A stretch of DNA of 64,000 nt, taken from NCBI RefSeq assembly GCF_036013645.1, contig NZ_CP107869.1:4154001-4218000 (forward strand), in the 5' to 3' direction. This DNA is from Streptomyces sp. NBC_00490. GTDB lineage: Bacteria > Actinomycetota > Actinomycetes > Streptomycetales > Streptomycetaceae. Under the pieces are notes generated by a model that searched no databases, was not told the DNA's origin, and worked only from the letters and a program-made list of their open reading frames with translations. The translations under genes were made by a program, and so were the position numbers. Positions within the stretch are counted from its first letter, which is position 1. The number at the start of each line of letters is the position of its first letter. This document shows positions 1-34,070 of the stretch, one piece after another.

Positions 1-470
1 GACCGGGCGGGGCGGGCGGGCTCGGTCGACGTCCTGACCGACGGTCTCGGACCCGCCGACCAGGACGGGGCGGGGCGGCCCTACCGCGTCGACGTTCTGA
101 CCGGCGGCCCCGGGCCCACCCACCAGGACGGGGCGCACCGGCCCCAACCATTCGACTTCCTGCCCGACCGCAGACCGGCCGACCCGGGCGGTACTCAACG
201 GCTCCACCCGGTCAACGTCTTGCTCAGCCACAGACCGGCCAACCAAGACGGGACCAGCCCGCCGCGCCCGGTCGACGCCCTCAGACCCACCGATCAGGAC
301 GGGTCGCAGCGACCTCACCCGGTCAACGTCCTGACCGACGGTCTCGGACCCGCCGACCAAGACAGGACCAGCCCGCCGCGCCCGGTCGACGCCCTCACCG
401 GCAGCCTCAGACGCACCGACCAGGACAGGGGGCAACGACCCCGCACGGTCAACTTCCTGCCCAGCAACCG
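1..470 (-). repeat. In-frame 63-bp tandem repeat encoding the transporter tail
   Basis: The + strand motif GTCGACGTCCTGACC and its variants recur at 25, 88, 151, 211, 271, 322, 385 and 448. Spacings are 63, 63, 60, 60, 51, 63 and 63 bp. All length changes are whole codons. On the minus strand each unit reads roughly GQDVDR, then a variable R/P-rich stretch, then PVLVGGSE. The array continues past the left edge, so the copy number is unknown. Confidence 0.85.
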
Positions 471-1266
471 CCGCCGGGGCGGTGGTCGGGCGGCTGAGCA
501 AGGTCACGCCGTGGATGGCGGACGCGGCGGCGGTGAGGGCGAGGAGGGTGCCTGTGGGGCCGTAGCGGAAGCCCTCGCCGAGGAGGGTGAGGCCGATGGC
601 GGCGGCGGTGACGGGGTTGACGAGGGTGAGGAGGGCGAGGGGGCCGCCGAGGCCGTGGCGGTAGGCCTTCTGGGAGAGCAGCAGGCCGCCCACCGCGAAG
701 GCGACCGTCAGGAGCGCCACCAGCGCCGTGCTCCAGGAGAGCGTCGGGCCGACCGCGAGCTTCTGTGCCAGCGTGGAGCCGGCCCCGGAGGCGATGCCGG
801 ACGCGGCGGCGACCGCGAGGCCCCCGCGGGCCGAGAGCAGCGTGACGGCCGCGGCGGCGACGAGTGCCACCAGCAGGACCCCGGTGGTGTTCAGGGTGTC
901 GCCGCGCCCCGAGGCCGTGACGGCCAGCAGGGTCGTCAGCCCGAGGAGGGTGAAGGCCATGCCGTTCCACTGGGTGCCCGAGGTCCGGCGGCCCGAGACC
1001 AGCGAGCCCAGCGGTACCGCGAGCACGAGGCTCAGCGCGCCGAGCGGCTGCACCAGGGTCAGCGGTCCGTAGCGCAGGGCGACCACGTGCAGCAGCGCAC
1101 CGGAGGCGTTGAGGAGCACGGACCCCCACCACCCGCCGCGGGCCAGCGCCCCGCGCACGCTCATGGTGTCGGCGGCGGTCCGCTCCTGGACGACCGCGGC
1201 CGCCGCGTAGCAGATCGCCGAGACCAGGGAGAGGGCCACGGCCAGGAACACCGGAGAACCTGTCAT
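1..1266 (-). CDS. DMT/EamA-type transporter with tandem-repeat C-terminal tail (3' end cut off by the window edge)
   Basis: An integral membrane protein of the drug/metabolite transporter superfamily; the substrate cannot be read from the sequence. ATG at 1264-1266 follows GGGGAGG. The first ~265 residues are alternating hydrophobic helices of the EamA type, including a second-repeat segment LVNPVTAAAIGLTLLGE and ending near HGVTLLSRP (about 480-500). The frame then stays open to base 1 with no stop. The extra >=150 residues are a tandem repeat of about 21 residues built on GQDVDR and PVLVGGSE, rich in G, V, D and R with no membrane segment. Repeat spacing is 63, 60 or 51 bp, always a multiple of three, which supports translation. 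Family members usually stop near 300 residues, so the tail is the oddity. The core call is firm; the tail being translated is a strong inference. Confidence 0.8.
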   Translation of the reverse strand, partial: MTGSPVFLAVALSLVSAICYAAAAVVQERTAADTMSVRGALARGGWWGSVLLNASGALLHVVALRYGPLTLVQPLGALSLVLAVPLGSLVSGRRTSGTQWNGMAFTLLGLTTLLAVTASGRGDTLNTTGVLLVALVAAAAVTLLSARGGLAVAAASGIASGAGSTLAQKLAVGPTLSWSTALVALLTVAFAVGGLLLSQKAYRHGLGGPLALLTLVNPVTAAAIGLTLLGEGFRYGPTGTLLALTAAASAIHGVTLLSRPTTAPAAVAGQEVDRAGSLPPVLVGASEAAGEGVDRARRAGPVLVGGSETVGQDVDRVRSLRPVLIGGSEGVDRARRAGPVLVGRSVAEQDVDRVEPLSTARVGRSAVGQEVEWLGPVRPVLVGGPGAAGQNVDAVGPPRPVLVGGSETVGQDVDRARPPRPV

Positions 1267-1297: not shown

Positions 1298-1355
1298 TAC
1301 GAAACGGTTTCGTACCGACACACTACGAGGAGGCTTAACGAAACGCAAGCGTTTC
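1298..1355 (-). promoter_or_regulatory. Promoter of the DMT transporter with two TetR-like dyads
   Basis: On the minus strand a -35-like TTGCGT (1343-1348) lies 17 bp from a -10-like TAGTGT (1320-1325). Two dyads flank it. TACGAAAC-G-GTTTCGTA at 1298-1314 lies between the -10 and the gene, and GAAACGC-AA-GCGTTTC at 1340-1355 covers the -35. Both share a GAAAC/GTTTC core, typical of TetR-family operators. No TetR gene adjoins it inside the window. Confidence 0.6.
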
Positions 1356-9089: not shown

Positions 9090-10334
9090 ATGGCCTTGTC
9101 CCAGTCTGAGCTGATGCGGCTGCTGGAGTCACTACGTCGGGCCGAGGGAGTTGAAGCAATCAGGGTGGTGTGCGAGCGCATCCTGCAGGAGCTCATCGAG
9201 GCCGAGGCCACCGAGGTGATCGGTGCCGGGCCGCGTGAGCACTCCGAGTCGCGCACGACCTGGCGCAACGGACACCGCGACCGTCTGCTGACCACCCAGG
9301 CCGGCGACCTGGATCTGAAGATCCCGAAGGTGCGGACCGGGTCGTTCTTCCCCTCGTTGCTGGAACGTCGGCGGCGCATCGACCGGGCACTGTTCGCCGT
9401 GGTGATGGAGGCATACGTGCACGGCGTCTCCACCCGCAGCGTGGATGACCTGGTCAAAGCACTCGGTGCGGACTCCGGGATCTCCAAGTCCGAGGTCTCG
9501 CGGATCTGCGGAGAACTCGACGAGGAACTGACCGCGTTCAAGGAACGGCCGCTGGATCACACCGTCTTCCCCTACGTCTTCCTGGACGCCACCTACTGCA
9601 AGGCCCGGGTGAACCACCGGATCGCCTCGCAGGCCGTGGTCATCGCCACCGGCATCTCGGCCACCGGGCACCGCGAGATCCTCGGTGTGATGGTCGGCGA
9701 CAGCGAATCGAAGCCGTTCTGGACGAAGTTCCTGCGCAGTCTGCGGGCTCGCGGCCTGGAGAACGTCCAGCTGGTGATCTCCGACAGCCACAGCGGGCTG
9801 GTGGCCGCGATCCGCACCGTCTTCCTCGGTGCGGCCTGGCAACGCTGCCGGGTCCACTTCGTCCGGGACGTCTTCAGCGTGATCGAAAAGGGCTCGGGCG
9901 AGATGGTGGCAGCGACCATACGCACCATCTTCGCGCAGACCACCGCCGAGCAGGTGCGCACCCAGCTGGACGTGGTCGCCGACATGCTCGGACGACAGTT
10001 CCCGCAGGTCAAGAAGATGCTGCTGGACGCCGCACCGGACATCACGGCGTTCGCGGACTTCCCTCCGACGCACTGGAAGAAGATCTGGTCGACCAACCCG
10101 CTGGAACGGCTGAACCGGGAGATCAAACGACGGGCCGACGTCGTCCAGGTCTTCCCCAACCCCGCCGCCCTGGACCGGCTCGCCGCCGCGGTCCTGGCCG
10201 AACTCCACGACGAATGGCAGGTCTTCGACCGCCGCTACCTCTCCGAAGCCTCCATGGCCGAACTCTTCACCACCCAGCCCACCTCACCGGAGCCGCAGAT
10301 CAACTCCAAACCGGAATCGAAACAGCTGCCGTGA
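9090..10334 (+). CDS. IS256-family (mutator-type) transposase
   Basis: 414 residues, full length for the family. DDE catalytic residues are recognisable: the first Asp in FLDATYCKAR, the second in VISDSHSGL, and the Glu in NPLERLNREIKRR. The N-terminal block RNGHRDRLLTTQAGDLDLKI is typical of the family. ATG at 9090 follows GGAGGAGC with good spacing. The stop codon (10332-10334) overlaps the right inverted repeat. No frameshift or internal stop, so it is probably functional. Confidence 0.95.
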   Translation: MALSQSELMRLLESLRRAEGVEAIRVVCERILQELIEAEATEVIGAGPREHSESRTTWRNGHRDRLLTTQAGDLDLKIPKVRTGSFFPSLLERRRRIDRALFAVVMEAYVHGVSTRSVDDLVKALGADSGISKSEVSRICGELDEELTAFKERPLDHTVFPYVFLDATYCKARVNHRIASQAVVIATGISATGHREILGVMVGDSESKPFWTKFLRSLRARGLENVQLVISDSHSGLVAAIRTVFLGAAWQRCRVHFVRDVFSVIEKGSGEMVAATIRTIFAQTTAEQVRTQLDVVADMLGRQFPQVKKMLLDAAPDITAFADFPPTHWKKIWSTNPLERLNREIKRRADVVQVFPNPAALDRLAAAVLAELHDEWQVFDRRYLSEASMAELFTTQPTSPEPQINSKPESKQLP

Positions 10335-10353: not shown

Positions 10354-10740
10354 ATGACCCACACCGCCGCACCACCCCCGGGCGGGGCACCCACTCATGC
10401 GCGCCGCCCCAGGCGGAACGCACCCCCACCACACCGTCCCCAGGCGGGACGGGCCCGCGCGTGCACCGCCCACCCTCACCACCGCACCGCCTCACGGCGG
10501 GGCACCACCCACGCTCGCGCGCCCCCCCAAGCGGAACGCGCCCCCACCACCGCACCGTCCCCAGGCGGGACACCACCCACGCATGCGCGCCACCCCCAGG
10601 CGGAACGCACCCTCACCACCGCACCGTCCCCGGCGGAACGCACCCCCGGCGCCGCACCGTCCCCAGGCGGAGCGCAGCCGCACCGCCGCACCACTCCACG
10701 GCGGAACGCACCCGCCCCCAGGCGAGACGGGCCCGCGCTC
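10354..10740. repeat. GC-rich degenerate tandem repeat array, right part
   Basis: Units of about 31-36 bp (sometimes seen as a 69-bp double unit) carry GCGGAACGCACCCCC or GGCGGGACACCACCC, then CACCGCACCGTCCCC. GCGGAACGC-type anchors occur at 10413, 10531, 10600, 10633 and 10701, with variant anchors between. The array ends before the EamA gene. The stretch 10741-10959 that follows is GC-rich, non-repetitive and holds no gene I can support. Frames through the array look like low-complexity shadows. Confidence 0.75.
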
Positions 10741-32160: not shown

Positions 32161-32282
32161 AGGGCCCTCCTTCGCGCGTTCTCGCCGGCGGGTGTCGAGC
32201 ACTGACACTAGGTGGCCGGAAAGCGGCCGCGAAGTGTAGGTTTCATCCATTCCAGCCGCGCCGAATGGAGGAAATGCACACC

Positions 32283-34070
32283 ATGCCGGATCCCTCCGTT
32301 CCGCCCACTCCCCCCGTGCCCCTCGCGGCTCTCCTGGCCCGTGAGGACCTGGCCCTGCGGCAGATCGCGGGCCCCTCCGATCCCGCCACGGTGATCCACT
32401 GGGCGCACACCTCGGAGATGGCGGACCCGTATCCCTATCTGCTGGGCGGCGAGCTGCTGCTGACGGCCGGCGTCCACGTCCCGGAGGCGGCGGGCTCGGG
32501 GGCCTACTTCGACGACTACGTCTCCCGGATCGTGGCGGCGGGCGGCGCGGCCCTCGGTTTCGGTGTCGCCCCGGTCCACGACACGGTGCCGCGGGCGCTG
32601 GTGGAGGCCTGCAACGCGTACGAGCTGCCGCTCATCGAGGTCCCGCCCCGGACCACGTTCTCCGGTGTGGCCCGCGCGGTCTGGCAGCTCATGGCCCAGG
32701 CCCGCCTCGCCGAACTGCGCCGCGTGACGGAGGCCCAGCAGAGCCTGGCGGCGGCCGCCTCCCGACCGGACCCGGTGCCCGCGGTGCTGCGGCAACTGGC
32801 CCAGCGGGTGAGCGGCCGGGCGGTGCTGTACGGACCGGAGGGGACCGAACTGGCGGCGGCGGGACGGGAGCCGGGGGGTGCGGTGCCCGGGGCTCTGGCA
32901 GAGCTGGCGGGGGTCGTACGGCCGGTGGCGGCGCGCGGGACAGGCTTCTCGCCCTCGCGGACGGACGGCCCGGCAACATCGGCGAGCCCGGCCACCGGAC
33001 GGCCAGGGACGGCGGGCCGGGCAGGTACCTCGCCGTCTCGGACAGACGGCCCGGCGGCACGGGCGGGTGGCCCGGCAGCATCGGTGGGCCCGGCAACGGA
33101 ACGGCCGGGGGAGCTCGCCGACGCGCCGAGCTCCCGGCCGGCCGGCGGGCCCGCTCGCGGCGCCGACCGGACCGGCTCCGGCTCGCCCGCGACCACCGGC
33201 CGCCTCACCCGCAGACCCGCCCCGCCCACCGTCGACGCCCCGCCCTCGCCCACCAGCCGCCCCGCCCCCACCTCCGCCACCGACACCGTCGCCGGGACCC
33301 ACCTCGCCGCCTACGCCCTCGGTGCCGGGCAGGGGTTCGTGCTCGGGGTCGCCTCGCCCGAGGGCGTTCCCGGGGACCACACCATCGCCTCCGTCGCCGC
33401 CGTCCTGCTGTCCCTGCTCACCGGCGAGCACCAGAGCGGTTCGGGGGCGGCGCGGTCGTCCGCGCTGGTACGGCTGCTGCTGGGCGCCCCGCCACAGGAG
33501 GTGGCCGTGCTGCTGGGGGCCGAGCGGTGGGTCGTCGTGCACGCCCGTCCCGACGCGCACGCGCCCGACGCCGTCGCCGCCTCCGCGCTGGGCGCCGCGC
33601 TCGGCTCGCCGCTCGTCGACCTCGCGCGGGACGTCGTACGCGTCCTCGTCCCGGCCGACCGCGAGGCACAGCCGCAGCCCGGCTGGACCCTGGGCGTCAG
33701 CGCGCCGGTGAGCCCGCCCGAGTGGCCGGTCGCGGACACCCAGGCCGCCCGTGCCCTCGCCCGCGCCCGGGCGACCCGCAGCGCACTGGTCCGCCACGAC
33801 CCCCGCCCCGGCCTGAGCGCCCTCGTCCCGGCCGACGAGGCCGAGGCACACGCGCGTGCCCTCCTCGCACCCATCGCGGACACCCCGGCCCTCACCGACA
33901 CCCTGCGCACCTGGCTGTCCCTGCACGGCAGTTGGGACCGCACCGCCGTGGCGCTGGCCGTGCACCGCAACACCGTCCGCCAACGCGTCGCCCGCTGCGC
34001 GTCCCTGCTGGACACGGACCTGGACGACCCCGACGTACGCATGGAGTTGTGGTTCGCGCTGCGGCAGTGA
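32283..34070 (+). CDS. PucR-family transcriptional regulator with low-complexity insert
   Basis: 595 residues from ATG 32283, 11 bases after GGAGG; ATGs at 32265 and 32274 overlap that site and are less likely. The N-terminal PucR domain (PLAALLAREDLALRQIAG to about residue 150) is a ligand-sensing module. The C-terminal HTH_30 is LRTWLSLHGSWDRTAVALAVHRNTVRQRV. Between them residues ~215-330 are S/P/G/A/R-rich, including a near-perfect 27-residue duplication beginning SPSRTDGPA. PucR proteins respond to purine or amino-acid breakdown products; this one probably controls the divergent symporter-ureohydrolase-TPP operon. Confidence 0.88.
   Translation: MPDPSVPPTPPVPLAALLAREDLALRQIAGPSDPATVIHWAHTSEMADPYPYLLGGELLLTAGVHVPEAAGSGAYFDDYVSRIVAAGGAALGFGVAPVHDTVPRALVEACNAYELPLIEVPPRTTFSGVARAVWQLMAQARLAELRRVTEAQQSLAAAASRPDPVPAVLRQLAQRVSGRAVLYGPEGTELAAAGREPGGAVPGALAELAGVVRPVAARGTGFSPSRTDGPATSASPATGRPGTAGRAGTSPSRTDGPAARAGGPAASVGPATERPGELADAPSSRPAGGPARGADRTGSGSPATTGRLTRRPAPPTVDAPPSPTSRPAPTSATDTVAGTHLAAYALGAGQGFVLGVASPEGVPGDHTIASVAAVLLSLLTGEHQSGSGAARSSALVRLLLGAPPQEVAVLLGAERWVVVHARPDAHAPDAVAASALGAALGSPLVDLARDVVRVLVPADREAQPQPGWTLGVSAPVSPPEWPVADTQAARALARARATRSALVRHDPRPGLSALVPADEAEAHARALLAPIADTPALTDTLRTWLSLHGSWDRTAVALAVHRNTVRQRVARCASLLDTDLDDPDVRMELWFALRQ
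32949..33110 (+). repeat. 81-bp in-frame tandem duplication inside the PucR gene
   Basis: The unit starting TCGCCCTCGCGG at 32949 recurs as TCGCCGTCTCGG at 33030. Each encodes 27 residues beginning SPSRTDGPA and ending with PG/T-rich sequence. The copies have diverged but keep frame and length. Confidence 0.65.

Follow-up and report, generated by a model that had tools for sequence, protein, structure and literature searches.

The gene at the left end of the window codes for a DMT/NIPA-like membrane protein, and its reading frame passes from a conserved core, through a tandem array of eight repeat units, to a conserved end peptide. The number of units varies in near relatives, and a syntenic relative is array-free. 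The array is probably an in-frame 63-bp minisatellite that has grown by slippage or unequal recombination in the disordered cytoplasmic tail of this nine-helix protein. The window is the whole stretch of DNA analyzed, 64,000 nucleotides in length (G000:C1:4154001-4218000), and its left flank is L009.

The reading frame and the layout of the protein

The gene starts with an ATG at window position 1266 on the minus strand, with GGAGG nine bases 5′ of this codon. The initial annotation had described a DMT frame that runs past the last helix, through at least eight repeats and off the window, and had proposed a leftward extension to find its stop. This minus-strand frame is confirmed. It leaves the window at the left end, and the left-flank sequence has the stop codon 137 bp further on (L009:5863-5865; G000:C1:4153863), giving a protein of 467 residues. 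The protein consists of the core (residues 1-258), a linker, the eight units (residues 267-428), and a 39-residue end (LEQNSGQARPTLPAPPIRTEPLRRPLPVSVGLTGASRAM). The features of this region are as follows.

1..1266, then 137 bp beyond the left end of the window, minus strand: DMT/NIPA-like membrane protein gene, 467 residues (left flank, homologs)
493..1266, minus strand: membrane core, residues 1-258, nine predicted long helices (AlphaFold2, loop charges)
1..468, continuing to -17, minus strand: tandem array, residues 267-428 (unit alignment, TRF in part, self-match against shuffles)
232..279, minus strand: short 16-codon unit (unit 4) inside the array (unit listing)
1298..1314, no strand: palindrome op2, TACGAAACSGTTTCGTA, upstream of the DMT gene, once in the genome
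1340..1355, no strand: palindrome op1, GAAACGCWWGCGTTTC, 42 bp from op2 (start to start), once in the genome
L009:5244-5846, outside the window, minus strand: puromycin-acetyltransferase-like gene, starting 16 nt after the stop of the DMT gene

The repeat units and their coding potential

The window contains seven complete units together with 45 bp of the eighth. Six units have 63 bp, one has 60 bp and one has 48 bp, corresponding to 21, 20 and 16 residues. Among the lengths first reported (63, 60 and 51 bp), 63 and 60 are recovered, and 48 bp is found in place of 51, the register being a matter of choice. The consensus of the six full-length units is AAGQDVDRAGPLRPVLVGGSE, and it contains both GQDVDR and PVLVGGSE, the two stretches that had been noticed as kept in the repeated peptide. 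The letters D-V-D-R and P-V-L-V-G recur across diverged units, which could reflect constraint or homogenization. TRF detects only part of the array. The self-match of the tail has its best score, 186, at a period of 21 residues, whereas the highest score among 200 shuffled versions is 51. The array belongs to the intragenic tandem repeats, with whole-codon units (63, 60 and 48 bp) within one frame and a copy number that differs between close relatives (0 in Streptomyces sp. WM6386 and 4-10 in the homologs P0001-P0008).

There are no stops across the array in the coding frame, compared to 4 and 7 in the other two frames of this strand. Two antisense frames are stop-free as well, and an open frame alone is therefore weak evidence for coding at this G+C content. 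The array is considered to be coding because its frame leads back into a C-terminal peptide that is also present in array-free relatives.

The codon-position and substitution checks proposed earlier were also carried out. G+C at the three codon positions is 0.864, 0.562 and 0.79 in the array and 0.721, 0.574 and 0.965 in the core, and the low third-position value of the array does not look like that of a well-adapted domain. Comparison of the eight units with one another gives a pN/pS ratio of 0.66 for the coding frame, compared to 0.98 and 1.49 for the shifted frames and to 0.81, 0.63 and 1.41 for the antisense frames. As one antisense frame gives 0.63, the in-frame value is weak evidence, and constraint on the repeat peptide is at most weak by this measure.

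Family, predicted fold and topology

The cut-off was reached by none of the curated DMT-superfamily models tested (PF05653, PF10639, EamA and NCBIfam DMT_1), with scores in bits against cut-offs of 21.8/26.2 for Mg_trans_NIPA, 19.8/30.1 for TMEM234, 15.8/28.2 for EamA and 28.4/50 for DMT_1. The protein is therefore named DMT/NIPA-like here, and not a certified member. A profile of 63 homologs matches NIPA2 (9z7s) with an E value of 2.5e-4, over positions 43-130 only. NIPA2 is the closest solved relative by sequence profile, and this homology to a solved member supports a relationship to the DMT superfamily. Homologs such as P0010 and P0012 have PF05653 assigned in precomputed data, and several relatives have the name DMT family transporter in their source records. 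The likeness to the superfamily and its NIPA-like family thus lies in the core sequence and in the NIPA2 match. Classical DMT members have ten helices, however, and nine are predicted here.

The AlphaFold2 model (63 sequences) has a pTM of 0.44 and contains nine long helices, the last of which ends at residue 258. Its pLDDT, averaged in blocks, is 62-82 over residues 1-260 and 32-47 in the tail from residue 281, and neither helix nor strand is found between residues 268 and 460. A second-look structural search with this model finds 6wk5 (an SMR transporter by its title), as well as 7paf, 6i1z and 9i20, which we take to be DMT-superfamily members. A designed protein and many rhodopsins are also found, and all of these scores are too low to be trusted for helical bundles. 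NIPA2 is not among the 50 matches listed by this search, an absence that carries no weight.

The loops show an alternation of positive charge. On the side of the tail, the mean number of Arg and Lys residues is 3.14, 2.57, 1.60 and 1.60 for loops 1, 3, 5 and 7, and 4.60 for the first part of the tail. On the opposite side it is 0 for the N-terminus and 1.00, 0.35, 0.94 and 0.37 for loops 2, 4, 6 and 8. Positively charged loops are located on the cytoplasmic side of membrane proteins (the positive-inside rule), and the tail is therefore probably cytoplasmic. The surface location suggested earlier does not agree with this placement.

The end peptide and array-free relatives

A search for homologs finds 1044 proteins with E values of 1e-10 or below among 8000 scored candidates, and 120 listed ones were examined. 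A tail of 23-98 residues is present in 108 of the 120, and most of these tails have the same end peptide. Short relatives have a short tail rich in Pro and Arg, followed by the same last residues, V-x-L-T-G-[AT]-S-R. For example, P0012 (301 residues) ends in VELTGASRAA and P0013 (320 residues) in VELTGVGRAM. The motif LTG[AT]SR terminates nine of the eleven top homologs (P0001-P0011): the array carriers P0001-P0008 and P0010 all reach this end, and P0009 and P0011 do not. The pattern TG[ATPMVS][SG][RK] is found within the last 14 residues of 82 of the 120 homologs, compared to 0.1% of shuffled tails, and a looser form of it in 87, leaving 33 tails without; the patterns were composed after viewing the tails, and the proteins counted are related.

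In Streptomyces sp. WM6386 (L071), the gene in the syntenic position codes for 301 residues from the same ATG. It has a 43-residue tail with the same end and is array-free, and the dS between its core and that of the present protein is 0.087. With the same ATG and the same end, both borders of the array are fixed, and it must have come or gone between them in whole codons. Array-free relatives with the same last residues further indicate an in-frame expansion in an old, length-variable tail. The earlier description of a charged repeat tail stands insofar as the tail is coding, soluble and about 200 residues long on a DMT-like membrane protein, but it is not an added domain: nearly all of the homologs have a tail, and the syntenic one is free of the array. 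Moreover, the model gives the tail no fold, and its sequence is much less conserved between relatives than the core.

The end peptide is not always kept, as P0009 (S. canus V4I20, L070:3240-3800) has lost it through a deletion that starts in the array and stops just short of the end of the acetyltransferase-like gene downstream. P0011 was considered as a frame-breaking relative and dropped, because its contig (L072) ends in an adapter-like stretch, presumably from a Nextera adapter. A close stop and relatives of about 300 residues, which the initial annotation had set against its own reading in combination with frameshifted repeats, are both present. Frameshifted arrays were not seen in these relatives, though one close strain, S. 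canus V4I20, has the deletion of the tail end.

A different tail end, GHLT near the C-terminus, is found in six of ten paralog loci examined and in L002 of the present genome. Another DMT paralog of this genome (L003, near G000:C1:8835378) has a tail of about 110 residues that is also repetitive-looking (VTAQKLLAGLAEPVTAEQLLAGLPE).

Variation and distribution of the array

The search with the repeat peptide and the count of its copies, both proposed earlier, were carried out. With an HMM built from the units of the present protein, the numbers of positive-scoring stretches in P0001 to P0008 are 8, 10, 8, 6, 8, 7, 7 and 4, respectively, and WM6386 is array-free. P0010 is not reported by the HMM, and its self-match gives a diverged 20-residue period. 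P0005 is made up of pairs of two unit types, as its best self-match is at 42 residues. Eight relatives examined have diverged arrays, and one more, S. canus, has lost its end by the deletion. Over the aligned parts, P0002-P0008 and P0010 are 90-98% identical to P0001 in their cores and 51-83% in their tails. In a tree built from 47 cores (WM6386 and 46 of the 120 listed homologs), P0001-P0011 form a group with WM6386 (support 96/75, not starred). Tail lengths in this group range from 43 to 253 residues, with the broken P0009 and P0011 included.

Self-repetitive tails are found in 26 of the 120 homologs, at a threshold (at most 1 in 200 shuffles as good) where about one is expected by chance and several are borderline. 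Ten of these are P0001-P0010, and the other 16 have other units. Unrelated repeats are observed at the same place, for example RTEPL with a period of 5 in P0013 and a 24-residue unit in P0026. It seems to be the place rather than the sequence that is prone to repeat growth.

The repeat peptide itself is found on P0001-P0007 only (E values of 0.001 or below; the 8000 candidates scored had lengths of 0.55-1.75 times that of the query). The protein has matches with E values of 1e-40 or below in 161 of 199 genomes of the genus, and matches of at least 68% identity in 6 of the 199, its own included, among the matches listed. Array DNA is found in 2 of 392 genomes of the genus (E values of 1e-8 or below), its own and G113. 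The latter match, of 58 bp, is held to be unrelated, since its locus has a histidine-kinase-like ORF (assigned by eye) and a DMT gene was not seen there. Searches of the genome with DNA and peptide find no second array, and a mobile or dispersed DNA repeat was rejected, the next best DNA matches being short (72 bp at 75% identity, E value 3.7e-4, and 34 bp, E value 6.9e-4). The window contains another coding repeat, a tandem repeat of about 57 bp at 33184-33291 inside a regulator ORF (32265-34070, PucR-like by eye). A 34/68-bp tandem array at 10471-10713, apparently non-coding, follows a transposase-like gene (9090-10334, IS256-like by eye).

Growth of coding minisatellites (VNTRs) in free, low-complexity tails is already known in kind. 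They share with the present array the whole-codon units, the copy number that differs between relatives, and the frame kept to the natural end. The host here, in comparison, is a DMT/NIPA-like membrane protein, and the differences are seen between relatives and not within one strain lineage. A literature search (titles and beginnings of abstracts) found nothing on such a repeat tail. Palindromic amphipathic repeat coding elements (PARCELs) are also in-frame tandem repeats in membrane-associated ORFs (PMC2996958). Relative to these, the present unit has 21 residues instead of 25, was seen in one gene family only, and shows no dyad symmetry beyond chance. Its consensus has 34 self-complementary matches in 63 positions, compared to an average of 33.5 in shuffles, and identity with PARCELs was rejected on this basis.

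The downstream gene and the double palindrome

A gene like the downstream one directly follows in six of six array-free orthologs examined (L071 and L041-L045), five of them aligned with the present gene (60-94% identity) and L045 judged by eye. A six-sequence profile (the present gene, L071 and L041-L044) matches puromycin N-acetyltransferase (7k09) with an E value of 1.8e-7 over positions 24-200, which supports the assignment to this family. No credible acetyltransferase model of Pfam or NCBIfam was found on the gene. The MarR-acetyltransferase gene of S. canus (L070:569-1543) has about 12 extra in-frame residues (PLSASLERGDPH) by eye, relative to its counterpart here.

Two palindromes, GAAACGCTTGCGTTTC and TACGAAACCGTTTCGTA, are located upstream of the DMT gene, and each is found once in this 10.8-Mb genome. 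Among the nine loci compared (the present one, L070-L072 and L041-L045), the first palindrome is exact in eight, with one mismatch in L041, and the second is invariant over its inner 15 bases in all nine. A promoter-like TTGCGT-17-TAGTGT was read by eye between them. When up to two mismatches are allowed, 15 of 392 genomes of the genus have a single copy of the joined 56-bp pattern, 14 of these copies being free of mismatches, and its reversed control has no match in the 392. A DMT gene is downstream of this module in 12 of the 15 genomes (the present one and those of the five loci L041-L045 included). In one (L109, by eye) the acetyltransferase-like gene follows directly, with no DMT gene between, and in two (L110 and L119) an MFS protein follows (PF07690 above cut-off). 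From these neighbors, the module reads like the site of one regulator for export and detoxification genes. The three operator strings had no match in the literature searched.

Possible origin and role of the array

In the minisatellite reading, the 63-bp unit would multiply by replication slippage or unequal recombination, possibly aided by pairing between repeat copies, in a tail that would be cytoplasmic, unfolded and largely free in length. Such growth would be tolerated, since nothing needs to be preserved except the frame, the end peptide and the start of the next gene. Selection would hold the frame through the end peptide and the next gene, which starts 16 nt past the stop and is probably translationally coupled. 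The repeats would be at most a spacer for the end peptide, and there may be selection on the repeat peptide itself.

The tail could instead be a functional, length-tuned tether or a multivalent tail, with units that bind a cytoplasmic partner or a length that sets the reach of the end peptide. The retention of 4-10 units in eight proteins (P0001-P0008), despite an array-free state in WM6386, would agree with this, as would the in-frame pN/pS below 1 and the unrelated repeats that other members of the family carry at this position. However, no fold or partner is known for it, identity falls to 51-83% in the tails, near relatives are array-free, and the repeat peptide is on no other protein among the 8000 candidates, nor elsewhere in the genome, so that we regard a tether as unlikely. 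A role of the tail in sensing or interaction, as suggested earlier, is possible. An extension of this idea is more doubtful still: an acetylate-and-export module in which the C-terminal peptide would dock the acetyltransferase-like enzyme, the repeat tail would be an adjustable tether, and both genes would be induced through an undescribed double operator (AAACGCTTGCGTTTC-N26-ACGAAACCGTTTCGT) that is found elsewhere in the genus before an MFS transporter.

It is very improbable that the array acts as DNA or RNA (as hairpins, an attenuator or a recombination site) and is open by accident, even though its RNA folding is stronger than in ten partly overlapping control segments (z of -4.4, compared to -2.0 to 0.9) and than in shuffles (z of -4.1, in a separate run). 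The frame rejoins the conserved end, the dyad symmetry of the unit does not exceed that of shuffled or synonymous samples, no Rfam family was found at gathering level in the 8.1 kb of L009, and apart from the array itself the genome has no better DNA match than the 72-bp one. The regular period of about 21 residues might also suggest a folded repeat domain or a surface-exposed, adhesin-like tail, which we consider the least credible of these possibilities. A folded domain was rejected on the low pLDDT and the missing secondary structure, the loop charges put the tail inside, and the units are unequal (16, 20 and 21 residues).

The minisatellite reading makes this gene a clean case of repeat growth confined to the tail of a transporter, with the core, the end peptide and the next gene kept. 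With unrelated repeats at the same place in its cousins, the relation between tail length and function becomes testable. A more useful lead than the repeats themselves is the pairing with an acetyltransferase-like gene, downstream of a double palindrome that is rare and nearly invariant. This pairing predicts that the genes form an inducible unit for detoxification or export, with a regulator to be found.
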